A stretch of 64,000 nucleotides of DNA from an uncultured bacterium (lineage in GTDB: Bacteria > Desulfobacterota > Syntrophorhabdia > Syntrophorhabdales > JANXAF01). The stretch is from assembly GCA_938084905.1 (NCBI GenBank), contig CALKEQ010000008.1, positions 62,001-126,000 of the forward strand, in the 5' to 3' direction. Both the position numbers and the translations under genes were made by a program. Position 1 is the stretch's first letter, and every line of letters begins with the position of its first letter. Under the pieces are notes generated by a model. The model was given only the letters and a program-made list of their open reading frames with translations, was not told the origin of the DNA and did no database searches. This document shows positions 50,217-63,196 of this stretch, piece after piece.

Positions 50217-51322
50217 TGAAAATACCCCTTGTAAATCTTAAGCTCCAGTACAAGAAAGTGGAAAAAGAGATCTTAAAAGGGATAAAGGAGATCCTAAGGG
50301 AACAGAACCTCATTCTCGGTAAATATTGCGCTCTTCTGGAGGAGAAAATAGCGAGCTACACAGGGGTTCCTTACGCTGTATCATGCGCTAATGGGACAGA
50401 TGCACTGATCCTTTCCCTTATGGCCTTAGGGATTGGTAATGGAGACGAGGTTCTGACGACCCCTTATACGTTCTTTTCAACAGCCAGTTCAATAACACTC
50501 GTTGGTGCAAGACCTGTCTTTGTAGACATTGAGGCAGAGTCCATGAACATAGATCCAGATAAAATAGAGGAGAAAATCACGGAAAAAACGCGTGCCTTAA
50601 TCGTTGTTCACCTTTTCGGAAAACTGTGCAACATGGATAAAATAATGGCCATTGCAGAAAAATATGGAATTTATGTGATTGAGGACATGGCCCAGTCGAT
50701 AGGGGCGAGAAAAAATGGGAAAATGGCCGGGTCCTTCGGACATGTTGCAACCTTAAGTTTTTATCCCACCAAGAATCTGGGAGGAATAGGTGAAGGGGGA
50801 ATGGTACTCACGAAAGATTCAGAGCTGGCGAATAGATTGAGAAAGCTTAGGGTTCACGGGATGGACAAAGTACCTTATAGGCACGAGTTGATTGGGATAA
50901 ACAGTAGGCTAGACGAAATAAAGGCTTACGCTCTTTACACGAAATTCAAGTATTTGGAAGATTGGAATAGGAAAAGGATAGAAAATGCAAAATTCTACTC
51001 ATCAGAACTTAAGGATCTGCCACTTCTGCTTCCGAGTGCTGAGGATGACGGATCTCACGTTTTTCACCAATACGTGATAAGGCTTGAAGAGAGGGACAAC
51101 TTAAGGGAATTTTTAGGAAGGAGAGGTATACAGACGGCAGTATACTATCCCTTGCCTCTTCACCTTCAGGAATGTTTTCGATATCTGGGGTATAAAAAGG
51201 GAGATTTCCCTCACGCTGAGGAAGCCTCAATGAAAAGTTTAGCGATCCCCGTATACCCCGAACTAAAAGAGAGGGAGAAAAGATACATTGTCAAATGTAT
51301 AAGGGATTTTTTCAAGAAATAG
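50216..51322 (+). CDS. DegT/DnrJ/EryC1/StrS family PLP aminotransferase
   Basis: PLVNLKLQYKKV; SCANGTDALILSLMALGIGNGDEVLTTPYTFFSTA; SFYPTKNLGGIGEGGMV. Confidence 0.93.
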   Translation: MKIPLVNLKLQYKKVEKEILKGIKEILREQNLILGKYCALLEEKIASYTGVPYAVSCANGTDALILSLMALGIGNGDEVLTTPYTFFSTASSITLVGARPVFVDIEAESMNIDPDKIEEKITEKTRALIVVHLFGKLCNMDKIMAIAEKYGIYVIEDMAQSIGARKNGKMAGSFGHVATLSFYPTKNLGGIGEGGMVLTKDSELANRLRKLRVHGMDKVPYRHELIGINSRLDEIKAYALYTKFKYLEDWNRKRIENAKFYSSELKDLPLLLPSAEDDGSHVFHQYVIRLEERDNLREFLGRRGIQTAVYYPLPLHLQECFRYLGYKKGDFPHAEEASMKSLAIPVYPELKEREKRYIVKCIRDFFKK

Positions 51323-52316
51323 TACAGTAAGGTTCCTCATCCATGAAATCCCCATATTCCTCGTAGGCCCTCGCTCTACATCCTCCGCAGATATCGAGAT
51401 AAGTGCAATTTCCACATCTGCCCTTGTAACTCGAATAATCCCTCAGCTTCAAAAAAACTGGTGAGTTCCGCCAGACGAACTCAACTCCATCCTTTTTTAC
51501 ATCTCCTGATTTTACCTCAAGGTAGCCACAGGGCTGGGCTACACCTGTATGGGATATGAACATGAAGCTTTTTCCTGCAAGGCAGCCAGAGGTTTTTACA
51601 CTTTCTCCCCTTTCCTTAAGTATTCGGTAGTACTGGGGTGCACAGGTGACCTTTATCTCCATCTCTTTTTTCCTTTCTAATAGGTAGAGGTGTTGCAAAG
51701 TCTCTTCGTACTCCTCCGCTTTTAACTGTCTGTCCCTTAGATTTCTGCCTCTCCCGACTGGGACTAGTAAAAAAAGGTGCCATGCAATTGCCCCAAGAGA
51801 CTTTGCAAGTTCGTATATGGAATCGATCTCATAGAAATTTAAAGAGGTAATGGTTGTATTTATCTGGAAGGGAAATCTCTCTTCCCTCAGTATTTTTGCT
51901 GCGCTAACTACTGAATCGAATGATCCATCAACACCCCTCAGACCATCGTGGGATCTTTTGTCCTTACCATCTAGACTCATGCTTATCCTTTTTATGTTCA
52001 GTCCTTTTAACGTCCTTACAACGTCCTTTGAAAGAAGGGTTCCATTTGTTGCAATTACCATATTGAGCCCTTTTTTGTTGCCATAATCGATTATTTCAAA
52101 AATGTCGTCCCTCATCAAAGGTTCACCCCCCGTAATTATAATTACGGGAGAGGAGAAGGAAGAGATGGAGTCTATTATGGACTTGCATTCCTCTGTTTCT
52201 AAGTCCCTTTCCTCTTGCCTTTTTTGCGCAGAGGCACGACAGTGAATACAACTCAGGTTACAGATACGGGTCAGTTCCCATGCTACCATTCTCAGAGGGA
52301 ACCTTCTTTCATCCAT
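51312..52316 (-). CDS. ahbD: Radical SAM/SPASM Fe-coproporphyrin III decarboxylase-like (AhbD)
   Basis: [95 protein letters not shown]. Confidence 0.85.
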
Positions 52317-53296
52317 TTGGCTAAATCCTTTGCAAAGTAAGTGATAAGGATGTCAGCACCGGCCCTTTTTATGGAAGTTGTAAGTTCGATAACGGTTTTT
52401 TTGTAGTCTATGTAACCTGCCCTTGAAGCTTCTTTTACCATAAGGTATTCACCACTTACCGAATAGGCAGCAATTGGGACAGTGAACCTTTCCCTTGCCG
52501 CACTTATCACATCCAGATAAAAAATGGCAGGTTTGACCATAACAATGTCCGCTCCTTCATTTATGTCAAGTTCTATCTCAGTTAGGGCTTCCCTCTTATT
52601 GTGAAAATCCATCTGATAAGAGCTTCTGTCGCCAAATTGGGGTTTAGATTCTGCTGCAACCCTGAAAGGCCCGTAGAGGGATGATGCGTATTTAGCAGCG
52701 TAACTCATGATTGGAATGTGATTATACCCGTTTTTGTCAAGCTCATCTCTTATAGCCCTTACCCTCCCATCCATCATGTCAGAAGGGGCAACCATATCTG
52801 ATCCAGCTTCCACATGTGAGAGGGCGACCCTGGATAGGACTTTCAAGGTTTCATCGTTATCTACTGTTTCACCCTTTACTATTCCACAGTGTCCATGGCT
52901 CGTGTACTCACATAGACAGACATCGGTTATTACGAGAAGTTCATCACCGAAAAGTTTTTTTATTCTCCTTACTGCCTTTTGTATGACCCCGTTTTCATCG
53001 AACGCAGAAGATCCGTATTCATCCTTCTTATCTGGTATTCCAAAAAGGAGGATAGCAGGTATTGAAAGATCTACTATTTCCTCGATCTCCCTAAGTACAC
53101 CTTCTAAAGAAAACTGGTATATGCCCGGCATGGAGGGGATCTCCGCCTTTTTTTCATCCATCTCCTTCACAAAAACAGGGCAGACTATGTGATTGATTGT
53201 AAGTTCAGTTTCTTTTACAAGGCTCCTTATTATTCCGTTTTTTCGCAATCGCCTAAGTCTTGTGTAAGGGTATTCCATACTAAGAGATCTCCTCAT
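52292..53296 (-). CDS. hemB: Porphobilinogen synthase (delta-aminolevulinic acid dehydratase)
   Basis: [63 protein letters not shown]. Confidence 0.96.
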
Positions 53297-54428
53297 CCGT
53301 TAGATAGCATTGTGGGTCTTCCGCCCAGATGTCCTTCGTTTTAGCATAAGCCCTAGCCCTAAAATTACCTCCGCACACATTTAGGAACCTACATTTTGCA
53401 CATCTTCCCTTTACGTAATTCTTTTTGTTTTTCAAAAGATTAAACAGGAGGTGACTCTCGTCTGTCCATATTTGGCTGAAAGGCCTTTCTAAAACATTAC
53501 CAATGGAAAAATCTCTCAAGAACTGGTCAGGATGGACGTAACCCTCCTCGTCTATTGAGGCGATTCCAACGCCTGACAGGTTTCCCTCGTTTTTCAAAAG
53601 GAGCTTGTACACCTCTTTTGCCCTTTCAGGATCCTCTTTCAAAAGCTTTAAATAGAGGTAGGGGCCATCTGCGTGATTGTCAACAGTCAAAACCTCAATG
53701 TTTCTGTTTCTTTTGAAAATTTCCCCTGTCCTTCGAATTATGTAATCCAGAACCCCTCTTCTCTCTTCTGGGGTTAGATCAAGGTCCATGAGATTCTTCC
53801 CCCTACCGGAATATACGAGGTGGTAGAAACATATCCTGTCGACCCCTTCCTTTTCAGTAAGGTCGAATATCTCAGGGATTGAGTGGAAATTCTCACGATT
53901 TATGGTGAACCTTATACCAACCTTCAATTTCACCTTCTTTAAGTTTCTTATCCCCTCTAATGCCATCTGGAAAGCACCTTTTTTCCCCCTGAATGAGTCG
54001 TTAACCTCGGAAGTTCCGTCCACACTTATACCAACATAAGAGACACCATTCTCTTTTAACTTCTTTGCCACATCATAGTCGATAAGGGTGCCATTCGTGG
54101 ATAGGACGGTTCTGAGACCCTTTTTTGACGCGTATCCTAAAAGGTGGAATATGTCTTCCCTTAAAAGGGGCTCACCCCCTGAAAAAAGAAGAACAGGAAC
54201 CCCAAAAGAGGAGAGATCGTCTATAATCTCCTGCCCCTTCTCCGTTGTTATAGGTTCTACAACGTCTTTATCAGTCTTTGCGAGAGCGTAGCAGTGTCTA
54301 CATGAGAGGTTACATTTTGCCGTTAAATTCCATACCACTACTGGCTTTCTATCCTTTGCGTCTGTTCCGTAACGGAGCTCGTCAAAGTTTTCTTTTGCCC
54401 CAAAGTAGAGCTTTGTAATGCTAACCAA
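53280..54428 (-). CDS. ahbC: Radical SAM/SPASM 12,18-didecarboxysiroheme deacetylase-like (AhbC)
   Basis: [47 protein letters not shown]-term [41 protein letters not shown]. Confidence 0.85.
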
Positions 54429-54436
54429 ACTACCTC

Positions 54437-54754
54437 CTATTTTTTGACGATTTTTTTCGCATAAAGGTCAGTCGTTCTCTCGTATGTGATAGTTACCCTG
54501 TCTCCAACCTTTAAACACTTTACGCAGGCCTTTTTTCCACCAATCTCTACAACGGTTTCTGGTGTTACTATGACTCCTACCACCATCTCAGATTTGCCAA
54601 CTCTTTCTGAGACCACAATAGCCTTTCCGTCAGGATCGATTGCCGTTACCTTTCCCGTAAAGGTTCTTAAAGAGTTTGAAGAGGAAGCGGAATTGACTAC
54701 TGCGAAAAGGAGCAAAAAAATTAAAAGAAGACCGACTTTTCTCATCCCTCCCAC
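54437..54754 (-). CDS. Small exported protein with CxxC, unknown function
   Basis: Signal peptide; FTGKVTAIDPDGKAIVVSERV...KKACVKCLKVGDRVTITYE; upstream of and co-directional with ahbC. Confidence 0.65.
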   Translation of the reverse strand: MGGMRKVGLLLIFLLLFAVVNSASSSNSLRTFTGKVTAIDPDGKAIVVSERVGKSEMVVGVIVTPETVVEIGGKKACVKCLKVGDRVTITYERTTDLYAKKIVKK

Positions 54755-54817: not shown

Positions 54818-55660
54818 ATGATTACGGCCGAAGAAGAATCGAGAATAATAGAACTTGCCTATGTACCAGAGCATATAGTTCCCCTCATGAGCACGATCTC
54901 TGGCGGCGAGCCCTTTTTCGAGGATGGTCTTCTTTACTTTAAAGGCAACAACTGGGTCATCATAGTCGGTTATCCACTTCTTGGAGATTACTCGGATGAG
55001 AGAATTTTAAGAGCCTTTAGGTTCGCTCGTGAGAAATTTGACTTCCATTACCTGTGGCTTGTAGGACCTAGCATTCCAGATGCCGTAAAGAGGGGAGCCT
55101 CGTTATTTTTGAGTGATCGTTACTACACTTTAGACTTAAATAATTTTGAGCCATGTAAGAGAGTAATTGGTCAAATAAGAAAGGCCTCAGAAAAGCTTTC
55201 GATTAAAGTCTCAAATTTTTATACACCAAGGCACGAGGCGCTCTCAGAAGCATTTTTGAGGGAGAAGAACCCAGATCCCTTTGTAAAGGGCCTTTTTAGC
55301 TTAATAGGGAATTACCTAAATCGATCCAGCTCGGCCTTACTCATAGATGCTTACGATTCAGAAGAAGACCTTGTGGCTTTCTACGTTGTTGATGGGTGTG
55401 CGAGGGACTTTCTTACGTACTTAATTGGATGCAGAAAGATGGACTCGAAAATTTCTCATGCATCGGATCTCATTTTTTTTAAAATGGTTGAAATTGCAAG
55501 GGAAATGGGGAAAAAGTACATTCATCTGGGTCTTGGGGTTAACGAAGGCATAAGAAAATTTAAGGAGAAATGGGGAGGCCTACCTACCGTGCCGTATCAG
55601 TTCGTTGAACTGAGAAAAGGTCTCTTTCAAATGTTAAGAGGCCTCGAAGGTGTCCTTTAG
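54818..55660 (+). CDS. Acyltransferase-like protein (GNAT/FemAB-type fold, inferred), paralog 1
   Basis: AYVPEHIVPLMSTISGGEPFFEDG; IHLGLGVNEGIRKFKEKWGG; paralogous to 56454-57284. Confidence 0.6.
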   Translation: MITAEEESRIIELAYVPEHIVPLMSTISGGEPFFEDGLLYFKGNNWVIIVGYPLLGDYSDERILRAFRFAREKFDFHYLWLVGPSIPDAVKRGASLFLSDRYYTLDLNNFEPCKRVIGQIRKASEKLSIKVSNFYTPRHEALSEAFLREKNPDPFVKGLFSLIGNYLNRSSSALLIDAYDSEEDLVAFYVVDGCARDFLTYLIGCRKMDSKISHASDLIFFKMVEIAREMGKKYIHLGLGVNEGIRKFKEKWGGLPTVPYQFVELRKGLFQMLRGLEGVL

Positions 55661-56453
55661 GATCGGGTCAAAAGAATTTAAAATGGTATTCAAGGTTGAG
55701 AAGACTTCAAAGGTTAACTATCTTTTAGGAACTGCCCACTTTTTCCCTTACAGTTTCAAAAGCTCGCTAAGAAAGATCATTTCAAAGGTGAAAAGGGTGC
55801 TGTTTGAGGGGCCACTGAATGAGAGCGATATGGAGACAATCAGAACGTACGGTCAAACTGGAAAACAAGATAATCCTTTGATAGGTATGATAACCAAAGA
55901 GGCTCGTGCAATCCTTAACGAGGAGGAAGATTCGGAGGTGTATAGGTACATTGGGTACTTCAGAAAGAAGAATGCGCTTGAACTGGAGACGGAAAATCTC
56001 ACTCCTTGGTTTGCCTTTTTTAAGATATGGAGTCTTTACCTTAGAAAAAGGGGATGGATCTACTCAGTTGATATGGAGGCTCATAACGTGGCAAAAGAGC
56101 AAAGAAAGGAGATCCATTATCTTGAGACGATAGAGGAACAGATACGTGCCCTTGAGAACATCCCCCTTGAACGGATAGTCAATTTCCTCAATCAATGTTC
56201 AATGTGGGAAGAATTTGCCAAAAGGTATGCGGATTTTTATCTCAAGGGAGATCTTGATTCCCTTCTTGCAAGCACCATCTCCTTTCCCACAAGATGCCCT
56301 TCCATATTGGATGAGCGAGACCCGGTTCTCTTTTTAAGGATCCTCCCATTCTTTGAAGACGGAGATGCTTCAGCCTTTCTTGGAGTAACTCATGTGAAAG
56401 GGATCTTAGATATGTTCAAAAAGGAAGGATACTCAGTCTCTCAAGGTTTGTAG
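55650..56453 (+). CDS. TraB/GumN-like protein
   Basis: VNYLLGTAHFFPYSFKSSLRKIISKVKRVLFEGPL and C-terminal DGDASAFLGVTHVKGILDMFKKEGYSV match the TraB/GumN G-x-x-H layout. Confidence 0.65.
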   Translation: MSFRIGSKEFKMVFKVEKTSKVNYLLGTAHFFPYSFKSSLRKIISKVKRVLFEGPLNESDMETIRTYGQTGKQDNPLIGMITKEARAILNEEEDSEVYRYIGYFRKKNALELETENLTPWFAFFKIWSLYLRKRGWIYSVDMEAHNVAKEQRKEIHYLETIEEQIRALENIPLERIVNFLNQCSMWEEFAKRYADFYLKGDLDSLLASTISFPTRCPSILDERDPVLFLRILPFFEDGDASAFLGVTHVKGILDMFKKEGYSVSQGL

Positions 56454-57284
56454 ATGCTAAGTAGAGAAGAGGAATGTTTAATCAGCAGAAATGCTTATAT
56501 TCCAGAGCACATCTACCCATATGTCCTTCTAATTTCGGGACTCGAACCCTTCTACTACGACCCATTCCTCTTTTATGAAAAAGATGACCAGGTGGTCCTA
56601 ATTGGTTACCCCTTGGAAGGCGAGTTTGATCCGGAGCTCTTTCTTAAGCTCATTGGAAAATTGAAAAAAGAGAAAGGGTTTAAAAAAGTGTCAGCCATTT
56701 CTCCAAGTAAAATCGATGAACTCGATCCAATAGATTCTGACTTTTACTATCTTCTCGATCTGAAAGAAGTAAAGGTAAGTCAAAAGACTAAAAACATGCT
56801 AAAGAGGGCAAAAAAAGAGGTGAAAATTGAAGTGGAAAAAAAGCTGACCTCAGAACACCTAAGACTCCTTGAAGAGTTTCTTTCTGAAAGGAATCTTGGA
56901 GAAAAGACCTCCTCTATTTTTAGGAGGATGCCAGCATACGTGGATTCTTCCCCTTATGCGCATGTTATAAGTGCCAGAAACGGAAAGGGGGATCTTCTTG
57001 CGTTTAACATTTTCGATACTTTTTCCTCTTCCTTCTCCTTTTACATGTTTAACGTGAGATCTAGGAGGAATTACATTCCAGGAACATCTGACCTTCTTTT
57101 TGAGGAGATGATAAGAATGGCCTTTGAAAACGGAAAGAATTTTATCAATCTTGGCCTTGGAATAAATGAAGGGGTGAGATTTTTCAAGGAAAAATGGGGT
57201 GGAAAGCGATTTTTGGCCTACTACTATTATGAATGGGTACCTAAGAGGAAACTTACCGATCTTATCTTTCAGGGGTTTCTCTAA
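56454..57284 (+). CDS. Acyltransferase-like protein (GNAT/FemAB-type fold, inferred), paralog 2
   Basis: NAYIPEHIYPYVLLISGLEPFYYDP; INLGLGINEGVRFFKEKWGG; paralogous to 54818-55660. Confidence 0.6.
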   Translation: MLSREEECLISRNAYIPEHIYPYVLLISGLEPFYYDPFLFYEKDDQVVLIGYPLEGEFDPELFLKLIGKLKKEKGFKKVSAISPSKIDELDPIDSDFYYLLDLKEVKVSQKTKNMLKRAKKEVKIEVEKKLTSEHLRLLEEFLSERNLGEKTSSIFRRMPAYVDSSPYAHVISARNGKGDLLAFNIFDTFSSSFSFYMFNVRSRRNYIPGTSDLLFEEMIRMAFENGKNFINLGLGINEGVRFFKEKWGGKRFLAYYYYEWVPKRKLTDLIFQGFL

Positions 57285-57286
57285 TT

Positions 57287-58360
57287 ATGAGCCCTTTTTT
57301 TGGATCAGGAGGGAAAAGGTTCTCCACATGGCAGATAGAGATCACAACCAGATGTCCTCTTTTGTGCAAAATGTGCATCAAATCCGTATTCAAAGACTAT
57401 GAGAGGAAGGATATGAGCATAGAGGATTTTAAAAGGCTCTCTCCCTATTTTAGATTGGTGGGGAGTGTTGTTCTTGAGGGGTGGGGTGAATCACTACTTC
57501 ATCCTCAGCTTCTTAATTTCATTCGCATAGTAAAAGAAGAGGGTTCTTTGGCTGGCTTTGTAACGAGTGGGTACGGTTTGACGGAGGATTACATAAAGGA
57601 GCTACTTAAGGTTGGGGTCGACTTTCTTGGCTTTTCCTTTTCAGGAGCGAAAGCCTCGACTCACCAAGCTATAAGGGTAAATTCGGATTTCGAAAAGATG
57701 GTATGGTCTATAAGATACTTTCGCGAATTGTCAAAAAGCCTGAACATAAGATGTCCCAAGATCCATATCGTCTACCTCCTCCTTAAGGAGAATGTGGAGG
57801 AATCTCCCATGATAATAGATTTGGCAAAATCTCTCGGAATAAAAGAGGTTGTTTTTCTCAACATAATTCAGATTTCCAGCAAAGAACAGGATGAAATGAA
57901 AGTTTTCGTTTACGAGGGTGAAAGTCCATATGAGGATATTTTGTTAGAGTCAAAAAGGAAAGCATCCTCCTATGGGATAAAGTTATTTATGCCTTCTCTT
58001 ATTTCGAGGGAGGTTAGTACCTGTCCGGAAAATCCTCTAAGATCCCTCTACATTTCTGTTAACGGCGATGTATCCCCATGCGTCTATCTCAATCCGCCTG
58101 TTGAGTCTCAATTTGTGAGGATTTTCAAGGGTGAGGCAAATAAGATGGAGAAGGTGGTTTTTGGGAACCTCTTTTGTGAATCTTTAAACGCAGTTTGGTC
58201 AAGAGAACAGTTCAGAGTTTTTAGAGAAGCCCACAAAGAGAGGGAAGAGGCAAAAAAAAGACTCTTTGAGAGTCTCATGAATTTCAAGCTCAGTAGTGAG
58301 TGTAGACTTCCACCCCTACCCCTTGTCTGTCAAAATTGCCACAAGATATACGGCCTCTAG
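57287..58360 (+). CDS. Radical SAM protein with SPASM-like C-terminal Cys
   Basis: WQIEITTRCPLLCKMC (CxxxCxxC); CPENPLRSLYISVNGDVSPCVYLNPP; LPLVCQNCHKIYG. Confidence 0.88.
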   Translation: MSPFFGSGGKRFSTWQIEITTRCPLLCKMCIKSVFKDYERKDMSIEDFKRLSPYFRLVGSVVLEGWGESLLHPQLLNFIRIVKEEGSLAGFVTSGYGLTEDYIKELLKVGVDFLGFSFSGAKASTHQAIRVNSDFEKMVWSIRYFRELSKSLNIRCPKIHIVYLLLKENVEESPMIIDLAKSLGIKEVVFLNIIQISSKEQDEMKVFVYEGESPYEDILLESKRKASSYGIKLFMPSLISREVSTCPENPLRSLYISVNGDVSPCVYLNPPVESQFVRIFKGEANKMEKVVFGNLFCESLNAVWSREQFRVFREAHKEREEAKKRLFESLMNFKLSSECRLPPLPLVCQNCHKIYGL

Positions 58361-58362
58361 GC

Positions 58363-58384
58363 GAGGGGCAAAACGGAGCCCCTC
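58363..58384. terminator. Hairpin between convergent radical SAM gene and tusA
   Basis: gaggggc-aaaacgga-gcccctc; no clear U tract. Confidence 0.4.
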
Positions 58385-58601
58385 AACCCTTCTCTATGAC
58401 TATTTTATAGCCCGCTCCTCCGGGTTCAATAGATTTTACCTCCCAGCCCCTTGAAGCTGCTAATCTACAGACATTTTCCTTTGAAGTATCCGTGTCAACG
58501 AGAATGACAATTTCACCTTTTTGGATTCTTTCCATTTCCTTTAAAACTAACATGACTGGCTGCGGGCAGGAAAGCCCTCTTGCGTCAACTATCGAACCCA
58601 T
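58383..58601 (-). CDS. tusA: TusA-like sulfurtransferase
   Basis: VDARGLSCPQPVMLVLKEMERIQKGEIVILVDTDTSKENVCRLAASRGWEV. Confidence 0.92.
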   Translation of the reverse strand: MGSIVDARGLSCPQPVMLVLKEMERIQKGEIVILVDTDTSKENVCRLAASRGWEVKSIEPGGAGYKIVIEKG

Positions 58602-58616
58602 AATAGCCCTCCTTTT

Positions 58617-59708
58617 TCACTTTTCTCTCATTGTGAGGCCTATGATAGAACAGACGGCAAGACCTGTAATAAGAGCAGGTACGGTGTAGGGACCAATCCC
58701 CTGGGGGGAGCTGGCTATGCCAAAATTGTGCGATATAGCTGCCCCAACTATCATTCCTAGAACGAAGATTGCCGCATCTCCGTCACCTTCTCCTGATAAG
58801 AAGAGCTGTCTTCCGGGACAGCCTCCTGCGAGTGTATATGCAAGGCCCGCAAGAACCATTCCTAGAAAGTTCCATAATGACATGCTATGTGCAATCGGTT
58901 GATTTTCGAAACCAGGTCTAAATTGGCCCAAAATCAGATTTGAGACAAAAGCGGCCAATGCTAAAGCAACAATCCCAAAGAGCAAATGGGTTTGTCTAAA
59001 AAGGATAAGATCCCTTATACCTCCAACTGTGCAGAATCTGCTGCGCTGAGCAATGAAACCTATTATCAAGCCAAAAATAAGTGAAACTGCCAATAGGGCG
59101 TGCATCGAACCAGGACCCTTTACGCTGTAGAAAAGAACACCGCTTTTTTCCTGACCGGGAATTTGTGGAAAAACAAGCATGAGAACTAAAAAGGAAGCCA
59201 TAATTCCCGGCATAATCCAGCCGGCGGTCTTTTGGGTGGACTGTGACCTACCTAAGTTGTACCCATGCTCAAAAAAAAGGGTTCCAATCCAGATTCCAAC
59301 AACAAGGCCCGCAATTCCGAAAATGGCGTTTCCGTCACCTCCCGCAAGTCTGAGTAAGGCTCTCCACGGACATCCAAGAAAGATGAGGGCTCCTGTCATG
59401 GCGAAAAAGCCTAGTATAAAACGGACAACAGGAGATGAACCTCCCCTAGGCCTGAATTCCCCGTAAAAGAGAGAGGCGAGACATGATCCAAGAACGATTC
59501 CTATTATCTCGGGCCGCATGTACTGAACCACCTCAGTTCTGTGGAGTCCTAAGGCGCCGGCTATGTCTCTTTCAAAGCATGCCACACATACACCCATATT
59601 TGGTGGGTTACCAAATTTTTGCAGAACCGTGGCAAGAACGCCTATCACGGCTCCGGATACGATTATTCCCTTTCGGGTCGAAAAAAAGGTAAACCTTCTC
59701 TGTCCCAT
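58617..59708 (-). CDS. yedE: YedE/YeeE family transporter (selenium-metabolism YedE-like)
   Basis: Repeated YeeE/YedE signatures FLGCPWRALLRLAGGDGNAIFGIAG and LAGGCPGRQLFLSGEGDGDAAIFVLG; next to tusA. Confidence 0.85.
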   Translation of the reverse strand: MGQRRFTFFSTRKGIIVSGAVIGVLATVLQKFGNPPNMGVCVACFERDIAGALGLHRTEVVQYMRPEIIGIVLGSCLASLFYGEFRPRGGSSPVVRFILGFFAMTGALIFLGCPWRALLRLAGGDGNAIFGIAGLVVGIWIGTLFFEHGYNLGRSQSTQKTAGWIMPGIMASFLVLMLVFPQIPGQEKSGVLFYSVKGPGSMHALLAVSLIFGLIIGFIAQRSRFCTVGGIRDLILFRQTHLLFGIVALALAAFVSNLILGQFRPGFENQPIAHSMSLWNFLGMVLAGLAYTLAGGCPGRQLFLSGEGDGDAAIFVLGMIVGAAISHNFGIASSPQGIGPYTVPALITGLAVCSIIGLTMREK

Positions 59709-61252: not shown

Positions 61253-63196
61253 GTGTTATTTAAAGGCGTGTCTAGGTATCCGAACCTTTTTTCTCCCGCC
61301 CGGATAGGAAATCTTTTGGCAAAAAATAGGATTAAGTACGCTGCAACTGAGACGAACTTCCCTTACGGTGACGGATACGTAAGTGAAAGGGAGATTGCTT
61401 ACATGGAGGCCCAGGCAAAAGGTGGGGCAGCAATTGTAACTACTCAAGGAGCTTACCCTGACAAAAAAGGAGAGGGCAAGGGTTTTAAAGGGATGCTAGC
61501 CATATACGATGATAAATTTATACCTAGTTTATCAAAACTGGCAGAAGCGATAAAGAGAAATGGTGCCCTTGCCTGTCTACAGATCATGCACTGTGGAAGG
61601 GAAGGTGGCATCGATTTGGACTACTGTGTTATGCCATCTTACGTTCCGCAGAGATTGGCCTACTTTAAAGAACCGAAGGTGATGACACGAGAGGATATAA
61701 AAAAAGCTGTAGAGGATCATATTTCCGCTGCAAAGAGAGCTTATCTTGCCGGGTTCGATATGATAGAGATCTCTGGTATAGTCGGTTACCTGATCTCCAC
61801 TTTTATTTCAAAGTACACGAACAAAAGACAAGATGAATACGGCGGTGATATATACGGAAGGTGCAAACTTATGGTTGAGATTATAAGTGGGATCAAATCT
61901 GAGCTTGGAGATAAGGTACCAGTTGGAATAAGGCTTTGTGGACTCGAACTTCTCGATGACCGCGGCGGTAATACGTTTGAGGAAAGTCTGGAGACTTTCA
62001 AAATTGCTGAGAAAGCCGGTGCTGATTATGTAAGTGTTACAGTTGGGTGGCATGAGTCATCCGTACCTGTTATCACAAGGGATGTTCCAATGGGAAGCTG
62101 GCTTTTTGTAGCGAAAGAGGTCAAAAAGAGGGTGAATATACCTGTTATGATGGCATTCAGACAGTTTCTTCCTCACATTCCAGAAAAGGCCATAGCGGAC
62201 GGGATAATTGACTTCTGGGAAGTCTGTAGACCCATGATTGCGGATCCTGAATTACCAAGGAAAGCTAAAGAAGGAAGAGAAAGTGAGATAATACCTTGCA
62301 TTGCATGCAACCTCTGTTTTTCAAGACTCTATTACCATCAACCTATCATGTGCACTGTGAGGCCATCACTGGGACATGAAGCGGAGAAAGAGTGGGGATA
62401 CTCGGGATTTGAAAAAGCGGAGAGAAAAAAGAAGATTCTCGTAGTTGGTGGTGGACCATCGGGTCTTCAATTTTCTGAAGTAGCCTCAAGGAGGGGCCAT
62501 GAGGTCATCCTCTATGAGAGGCGGGAAGATCTCGGTGGAAGTCTACTTTTTGCCTCGATGGTATCACCAGGAGATGAGGAACTCTTAAGATTTATCGATT
62601 ATCTTCGTCATATGTGCGAGAAATACGGTGTAAAGATAGTAAAAGGTGAGACTATAATACCCGAAAGGATCTCCAAGGATCAATTTGACGCAATAGTTTA
62701 TGCAGGAGGAGCAAAGGCGAAGGAGATCCTATTTGATGAAGGAGAGATCCTGACTCCAGAAGACATATTCGAGAAGAAATTAAGACCTTCAGGAAAGGTT
62801 GTTATCCTTGGTGGCAGAGGAATCGCCCTATCAGTTGCTCTCTTCCTCTTAAGGCAGGAAAGATGCGATATAACAATTGTGGCGAATGAAACTCGTCTTG
62901 GAAAGGATGTTAACCCCTTTTATCTTTGGAAGATGATTAAGACGCTAAAAGAAAATAACGTAAAAGTCTTCACAAACTCGGACATAATAAATTGGCGAAA
63001 AGGAAGAGTCCTCATTACGGATGAGAAGGAGATAGAATGTGACACTCTTATAAACACCTTAAGAGAAGATGCAACTTCCCTAATTGAACCGTTTTTTGGG
63101 TGCGCAAAGGAGCTCTACGTAATAGGTGATGCAAAAAAGCCGAGAAGGCTCCACAATGCAGTTCATGATGGGTATAAACTTGGGATGAAAATATAA
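61253..63196 (+). CDS. OYE-family NADH:flavin oxidoreductase / 2,4-dienoyl-CoA reductase-like (FMN, 4Fe-4S, FAD)
   Basis: LFSPARIGNLLAKNRIKYAAT; GYLISTFISKYTNKRQDEYGGDIYGR; CIACNLCFSRL...MCTVRPSLGHE; ILVVGGGPSGLQFSEVASRRGHEVILYERREDLGG. Confidence 0.92.
   Translation: MLFKGVSRYPNLFSPARIGNLLAKNRIKYAATETNFPYGDGYVSEREIAYMEAQAKGGAAIVTTQGAYPDKKGEGKGFKGMLAIYDDKFIPSLSKLAEAIKRNGALACLQIMHCGREGGIDLDYCVMPSYVPQRLAYFKEPKVMTREDIKKAVEDHISAAKRAYLAGFDMIEISGIVGYLISTFISKYTNKRQDEYGGDIYGRCKLMVEIISGIKSELGDKVPVGIRLCGLELLDDRGGNTFEESLETFKIAEKAGADYVSVTVGWHESSVPVITRDVPMGSWLFVAKEVKKRVNIPVMMAFRQFLPHIPEKAIADGIIDFWEVCRPMIADPELPRKAKEGRESEIIPCIACNLCFSRLYYHQPIMCTVRPSLGHEAEKEWGYSGFEKAERKKKILVVGGGPSGLQFSEVASRRGHEVILYERREDLGGSLLFASMVSPGDEELLRFIDYLRHMCEKYGVKIVKGETIIPERISKDQFDAIVYAGGAKAKEILFDEGEILTPEDIFEKKLRPSGKVVILGGRGIALSVALFLLRQERCDITIVANETRLGKDVNPFYLWKMIKTLKENNVKVFTNSDIINWRKGRVLITDEKEIECDTLINTLREDATSLIEPFFGCAKELYVIGDAKKPRRLHNAVHDGYKLGMKI

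Follow-up and report, generated by a model that had tools for sequence, protein, structure and literature searches.

A conserved four-gene module of FemX-like transferases, a TraB/GumN protein and a radical SAM enzyme linked to dissimilatory sulfite reduction

Which process is served by an operon that combines two paralogous transferases, a TraB/GumN-type protein and a radical SAM enzyme? The question is raised by a stretch of 64,000 nucleotides (the window in the following) from an uncultured Desulfobacterota bacterium of the order Syntrophorhabdales (GTDB lineage JANXAF01; assembly GCA_938084905.1, contig CALKEQ010000008.1, positions 62,001 to 126,000), in which four packed open reading frames (ORF1 to ORF4) occupy positions 54818-58360 of the plus strand. 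A first-pass annotation made from the sequence alone had described them as tightly arranged, with one 11-nucleotide overlap and gaps of 0-2 nucleotides, and the coordinates bear this out (junctions of -11, 0 and +2 nucleotides). It missed the main point, namely the tie of the module to dissimilatory sulfite reduction, the process that drives the anaerobic sulfur cycle and sulfide production in the gut. In the genome from which the window comes (1.54 Mb, 98% complete), no module gene was found a second time.

Distribution across genomes makes it very probable that the module is tied to dissimilatory sulfite reduction. Relatives of ORF1/ORF3 occur in 30/396 genomes of the phylum, mostly as pairs about 0.9 kb apart. 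All of these 30 except G094, G150 and G363 were examined for dsrA, and the gene turned up in each of the 27, 26 times above the curated cut-off and once, in G235, as fragments at contig ends; of the genomes without the module, 13 of 29 have it (Fisher p=2e-6). When the comparison is limited to the same order, dsrA is present in 6/6 genomes with the module and in 3/11 without it (p=0.009). The 30 locus genomes, picked mainly from outside Desulfobacterota, contain dsrA above the cut-off in 24 cases; in four others the match is DsrA-like or a fragment, with 226-345 bits. Among 100 Anaerolineae drawn from the class, four have dsrA and three the module, and all three lie within those four (p=6e-4 with the centre genome excluded); the link can also be seen independently in phyla with few dsrA carriers. 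Overall, the module is nearly confined to dsrAB-containing genomes (27/27, 28/30 locus genomes and 3/3 Anaerolineae), with G411 and G412 as small exceptions. Among genomes with dsrA, aprA was detected in 15/45 with the module and in 10/14 without it (p=0.015), and this lower share suggests that the module leans to sulfite or sulfonate reducers over sulfate reducers. The window organism itself possesses dsrABNCMK and lacks aprA.

Gene arrangements point in the same direction. Recurrent neighbours at the module loci are a YeiH-family transporter, the commonest extra neighbour (22 loci), and DsrA/DsrB (five loci). In Salmonella, resistance to sulfite has been found to depend chiefly on YeiH (PMC12880088). 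In the Syntrophus metagenome-assembled genome (MAG) G423 (L075/L276), the genes are arranged as ORF1-ORF2-ORF3-ORF4-dsrA-dsrB-dsrN-dsrC with dsrMK farther along, and the same beginning, ORF1-4-dsrA-dsrB, is found in L126. G097 and G152 feature an ORF3-ORF4-YeiH-NifU-NifS-dsrA cluster with ORF1-ORF2 located at another place, while dsrA resides no more than 10 kb from the module in G081 and G319. In Chloroflexi, ORF4 does not adjoin ORF1-3, and an ORF4-like radical SAM gene sits in the dsr locus instead (G398, G399, G400, G456). It adjoins dsrM in G399 and G456, is found as a weak match beside YeiH-dsrA-dsrB-dsrC in G400 and, again as a weak match, lies about 15 kb from dsrAB in G398. A clear match is present on a short contig in G397 and only a weak one, away from dsr, in G396. 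An absence of the radical SAM gene from Chloroflexi had been considered and was revised, as most of these genomes contain it, with clear matches in G397, G399 and G456 and less strong ones in G398 and G400. In the window organism dsrABNCMK reside on a different contig (L156) from the module, so that no linkage is seen there.

Two further families were noted around YeiH. In several Desulfobacterota, tandem genes located between the module and YeiH (L159:7132-8365 and others) encode NF038143 (HYxxLL) proteins of about 200 amino acids, possibly sulfite-related, and a Split-Soret cytochrome c-like (C_GCAxxG) protein is encoded beside YeiH and dsrAB in Syntrophales and a Chloroflexi MAG (L071:12483-13334, L161:7584-8504).

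The order ORF1-ORF2-ORF3-ORF4 recurs in dozens of genomes from several families and is therefore not due to chance. ORF1 and ORF2 are fused into one protein of about 570-675 amino acids in L056-L060, L062, L063, L110, L116, L133, L142-L144 and L149, and ORF3 and ORF4 into a single protein in L054 and L142. Order and fusions show a conserved unit composed of two half-modules, ORF1-ORF2 and ORF3-ORF4. A scan of named genomes yielded 122 relatives, residing in Desulfobacterota (Syntrophales, Syntrophorhabdaceae, Desulfomonile, Desulfobacterales and Desulfovibrionaceae including Bilophila), in Nitrospirota, Nitrospinota, Chloroflexi and Spirochaetes, and further in a Tectomicrobia, a Betaproteobacteria and an archaeal MAG. 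The first-pass annotation had taken the four genes for a co-operating cassette and had named homologs that never co-occur elsewhere as the outcome of a gene-neighbourhood comparison that would speak against it; the comparison came out decisively in favour of a real cassette, with linkage conserved across phyla and gene fusions. Its remark that no precursor peptide is visible also stands, as the small ORFs within 2.5 kb of about 80 loci include no conserved precursor, just lineage-local ferredoxins and chance ORFs.

What the individual proteins are can be stated with differing firmness. ORF1 and ORF3 share 35% identity over 264 amino acids (E=1e-49) and are paralogs, as had been recognized from their motifs. 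ORF3 barely passes the cut-off of PF09924 (LPG_synthase_C, the domain at the C-terminus of phosphatidylglycerol lysyltransferase), the Pfam search gave no significant match for ORF1, and a sequence search of solved structures with the ORF1/ORF3 profiles returned nothing useful. The AlphaFold (AF2) model of ORF3, built from an 80-sequence alignment (predicted local distance difference test, pLDDT, 94.7; predicted template modelling score, pTM, 0.89), is a compact double-GNAT, for which Foldseek gave FemX as the best match (E=9e-12, TM 0.70), followed by others to L-PGS, A-PGS, MprF and Sba18/Sbb17. The double-GNAT fold is thus predicted for ORF3 by the model and for ORF1 by its identity to ORF3. 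In both paralogs a Phe-Lys pair in the C-terminal motif is invariant (80/80 members). Catalysis has been assigned to Lys305 in FemX and to Phe328-Lys329 in DhpH-C (PMC12945691), and by analogy the pair in ORF1/ORF3 may represent the same residues. On balance, ORF1 and ORF3 would use aminoacyl-tRNA as donor, a reading that we somewhat favour. The earlier designation as acyltransferase-like holds in that a transferase of FemX/MprF fold is predicted, but this fold is more fittingly described as that of transferases dependent on aminoacyl-tRNA. The accompanying proposal, in which the radical SAM enzyme would make a product that the two transferases conjugate, is at this stage a hypothesis. In a phylogenetic tree the ORF1 and ORF3 lineages stand cleanly apart (75 and 66 sequences, none misplaced; support of the splitting node is low, 0.23, and the labels stem from profiles built on subsets), and these two clean lineages suggest that the duplication is probably old and that both copies were retained.

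ORF2 matches PF01963 (TraB_PrgY_gumN) over its full length with 101.6 bits (cut-off 26.8), in line with the earlier TraB/GumN assignment. The family keeps the GTxH, Glu, Arg-Asp and GxxH active-site residues of TraB, with G27, H30, E53, R223, D224, G245 and H248 invariant in 44/44 sequences. Comparison of its model with the PDB gave weak matches only, to a Tetrahymena complex IV subunit with a TM of about 0.45, and a sequence search of solved structures with the TraB profile found nothing useful.

ORF4 surpasses the cut-offs of Radical_SAM (PF04055, 52 bits) and SPASM (PF13186, 43 bits), and the CxxxCxxC motif of the radical SAM core is kept in 27/27 sequences. The first-pass annotation was right about the radical SAM enzyme and in part about SPASM-type cysteines: of the auxiliary cysteines, only C246, C265, C348 and C351 are shared by these sequences (27/27), not the full SPASM set of seven for two clusters, and the arrangement is therefore a one-cluster, Twitch-like one. 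This is consistent with a single auxiliary [4Fe-4S] cluster in the C-terminus. Among proteins of solved structure, BtrN, which is a one-cluster enzyme too, ranks first in sequence similarity, on a par with PqqE. The nearest named families for 27/27 ORF4 relatives are NCBIfam TIGR04317 (W_rSAM_matur, tungsten oxidoreductase maturase) and TIGR04311 (rSAM_Geo_metal, putative metalloenzyme maturase); with 159.8 and 145.6 bits ORF4 itself remains far below the respective cut-offs of 380 and 400. Three dsrA-containing genomes of the window's order, G125, G266 and G201 (L255, L256 and L259), keep ORF4, and a YeiH-like gene adjoins it in G125 and G266.

The best overall explanation takes the module for an accessory of dissimilatory sulfite metabolism, a link that is very probable, and adds to it the scheme outlined here; as a whole we give it nearly an even chance. 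As it is found almost only in carriers of dissimilatory sulfite reductase, the module is probably there to produce or alter a component required for life with sulfite. ORF1 and ORF3 may act as a non-redundant FemX-like pair that takes amino acids from aminoacyl-tRNA and attaches them to an acceptor whose gene lies elsewhere; candidates are a cofactor, a small scaffold and a protein of the Dsr pathway. ORF4 would then oxidize or cross-link this acceptor by SAM radical chemistry aided by one auxiliary Fe-S cluster, and ORF2, a putative metallohydrolase of the TraB/Tiki type paired with ORF1, would trim or release it; as the fusions predict, ORF1 would be in contact with ORF2, and ORF3 with ORF4. 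The product would support sulfite reduction or handling, especially in users of sulfite or sulfonate (not sulfate). We put forward this full sequence of conjugation, modification and trimming tentatively, and our assignment of chemistry and target is similarly provisional. That the outcome is a novel cofactor or post-translational modification specific to dissimilatory sulfite (sulfonate) respiration in bacteria of several phyla, and perhaps in an archaeon, is conceivable rather than probable.

Several observations weigh against this explanation. Many dsrAB-containing genomes do without the module, as seen in 13/29 module-free genomes with dsrA and in the classical sulfate reducers G001, G040 and G076, which lack ORF4 too; the module is therefore dispensable for DsrAB itself. 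The ORF1 tree is not significantly related to that of DsrA given the rplB/species background (partial Mantel r=0.10, p=0.12), and from this incongruence it follows that the module is not matched to one DsrAB type. Among the 30 locus genomes, G412 has no dsrA and G411 only a dsrB-like match, and ORF4 occurs without detectable ORF1/ORF3 in G125, G201 and G266. The search of small ORFs in the 2.5 kb flanks of the roughly 80 loci produced neither acceptor nor precursor. Use of acyl-CoA is also compatible with the dupli-GNAT fold. Finally, shared ancestry and anaerobic lifestyle confound co-occurrence, and most genomes are MAGs with names and binning as deposited.

Among the alternatives, maturation of a metalloenzyme fares best and still appears rather unlikely. 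By analogy with the radical SAM families that ORF4 resembles most, ORF4 and its partners would act as a maturase of dissimilatory sulfite reduction, working either on the siroheme-[4Fe-4S] cofactor or on a residue in DsrAB, DsrC or DsrMK. The best family matches of all 27 ORF4 relatives, TIGR04317 and TIGR04311, point this way, as do the position of the radical SAM gene next to dsrA or dsrM and the presence in the same loci of dsrN, which encodes an amidase of the CobB/CfbB type; the scores for both families lie far below their cut-offs, however, many sulfate reducers with DsrAB lack the module, and the gene tree is incongruent with that of DsrA. A cryptic pathway for a modified peptide or an aminoacylated metabolite, following a logic like that of 3-thiaglutamate or PEARL with a scaffold gene elsewhere and a sulfur or redox metabolite of low molecular weight as product, would account for the combination of transferase, radical SAM enzyme and hydrolase, and the fold of ORF3 is also that of the aminoacyl-tRNA-dependent peptide synthases Sba18/Sbb17. 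We consider it improbable, given that no conserved small ORF was found near the module and that the four-cysteine Twitch resembles BtrN-type enzymes, unlike classical peptide SPASM enzymes. Even less can be said for a response of membrane or envelope to sulfite stress, in which ORF1/ORF3 would aminoacylate a lipid in the manner of MprF and TraB would remove the group: the LPG_synthase_C match, the structural matches to MprF and the YeiH neighbour fit, but ORF1/ORF3 have no membrane domain according to the compact double-GNAT model, FemX outscores MprF, and the radical SAM enzyme is left without a role, making this very unlikely. Maturation of a tungsten aldehyde oxidoreductase (AOR), with the link to sulfite reductase as a by-product of shared anaerobic lineages, is disfavoured most strongly, for despite the TIGR04317 similarity of ORF4, four AOR-type (PF01314) genes in the window's genome (G000:C1, C3, C7, C10) and an AOR-like gene read from the sequence next to the module in L042, L047, L050 and L064, such adjacency is seen in one family only while dsr/YeiH neighbours span several phyla, and co-occurrence with dsrA is almost exclusive even among Anaerolineae, few of which carry this gene.

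Table 1. Features of the module and its surroundings in the window
Feature	Position	Strand	Remarks
ORF1 'GNAT1', FemX/MprF-like (dupli-GNAT) transferase	54818..55660	+	280 amino acids, ATG start; family alignment, paralogy
ORF2, TraB/PrgY/GumN (Tiki-type) putative metallohydrolase	55650..56453	+	267 amino acids, GTG start; PF01963
ORF3 'GNAT3', second FemX/MprF-like transferase	56454..57284	+	276 amino acids, ATG start; PF09924, AF2, Foldseek
ORF4, radical SAM enzyme, one-cluster Twitch/SPASM C-terminus	57287..58360	+	357 amino acids, ATG start; PF04055, PF13186
ORF1 Phe248-Lys249, putative catalytic FK pair (motif FKEKWGG)	55559..55564	+	F and K invariant 80/80; by analogy
ORF3 Phe244-Lys245, putative catalytic FK pair	57183..57188	+	conserved 80/80; by analogy
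ORF4 CxxxCxxC motif, Cys23/27/30	57353..57376	+	conserved 27/27
TusA/YedF-like protein	58383-58601	-	convergent with module; context, outside module
YedE family putative selenium/sulfur transporter	58617-59708	-	TIGR04112, 490 bits; convergent; outside module
AhbD-like, HemB, AhbC-like genes	51312..54428	-	siroheme-dependent heme route; divergent from module; context

Next to the module in the window, the AhbD-like/HemB/AhbC-like neighbourhood is kept only inside the same family (G024, G343), and its NCBIfam scores are high, yet at 426/500 and 543/650 they stay below the equivalog cut-offs. A gene on the minus strand (54437-54754), located between AhbC and the module and conserved there in G024 and G343, encodes a 105-amino-acid protein with a signal-like N-terminus and no NCBIfam match. 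The TusA/YedF-like and YedE genes directly after the module may indicate a link to sulfur supply. Farther downstream, at 61253-63196 on the plus strand, a flavoenzyme of the OYE/FadH family is encoded, which is near the mycofactocin OYE_2 and BaiCD models and below their cut-offs.

As to novelty, the superfamilies of all four enzymes are known, whereas their combination, and the connection of this combination with sulfite respiration, seem to be new. Radical SAM, TraB or GNAT genes are not mentioned in a dsr context in four comparative dsr papers (PMC10504309, PMC11406059, PMC10591310, PMC12948486), and in the open full-text literature we found no description of the module composition. The dsr gene set is widely treated as catalogued. 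The presence in dsr loci of four conserved genes that form a facultative module, enriched in organisms without aprA, indicates that a step is missing from it, which would be a metabolite for handling sulfite, a modification of a protein or a cofactor. The module could be used as a marker in genomes to tell reducers of sulfite or sulfonate from those of sulfate, and it would give the FemX-TraB pairing its first functional setting.

The module can be compared with the closest known systems. With the aminoacyl-tRNA-dependent transferases FemX, MprF (C-terminal domain, DUF2156, PF09924) and Sba18, ORF1/ORF3 share the predicted double-GNAT fold, and their Phe-Lys pair resembles the catalytic lysine motif; unlike these, they always occur as a probably ancient paralog pair together with TraB and the radical SAM enzyme, outside any peptidoglycan or lipid context, and their Pfam match is marginal for ORF3 and not significant for ORF1. 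ORF2 shares the PF01963 match and the GTxH, Glu, Arg-Asp and GxxH residues with TraB/PrgY/GumN (Tiki) proteins but is predicted to be soluble, is fused or coupled to a FemX-like transferase and lacks a pheromone or Wnt context. In contrast to the settings of TIGR04317 and TIGR04311, the partners of ORF4 are GNATs, TraB and dsr rather than AOR. The YeiE-YeiH sulfite stress system has the YeiH-family transporter in common with the neighbourhood of the module, whose genes are no part of that system as described, and the YeiH-like proteins found here are larger and stay below the TIGR00698 cut-off. Finally, the module shares loci and genomes with the dsr accessory genes dsrD, dsrN, dsrC, dsrMK and dsrEFH and, unlike these, is facultative.

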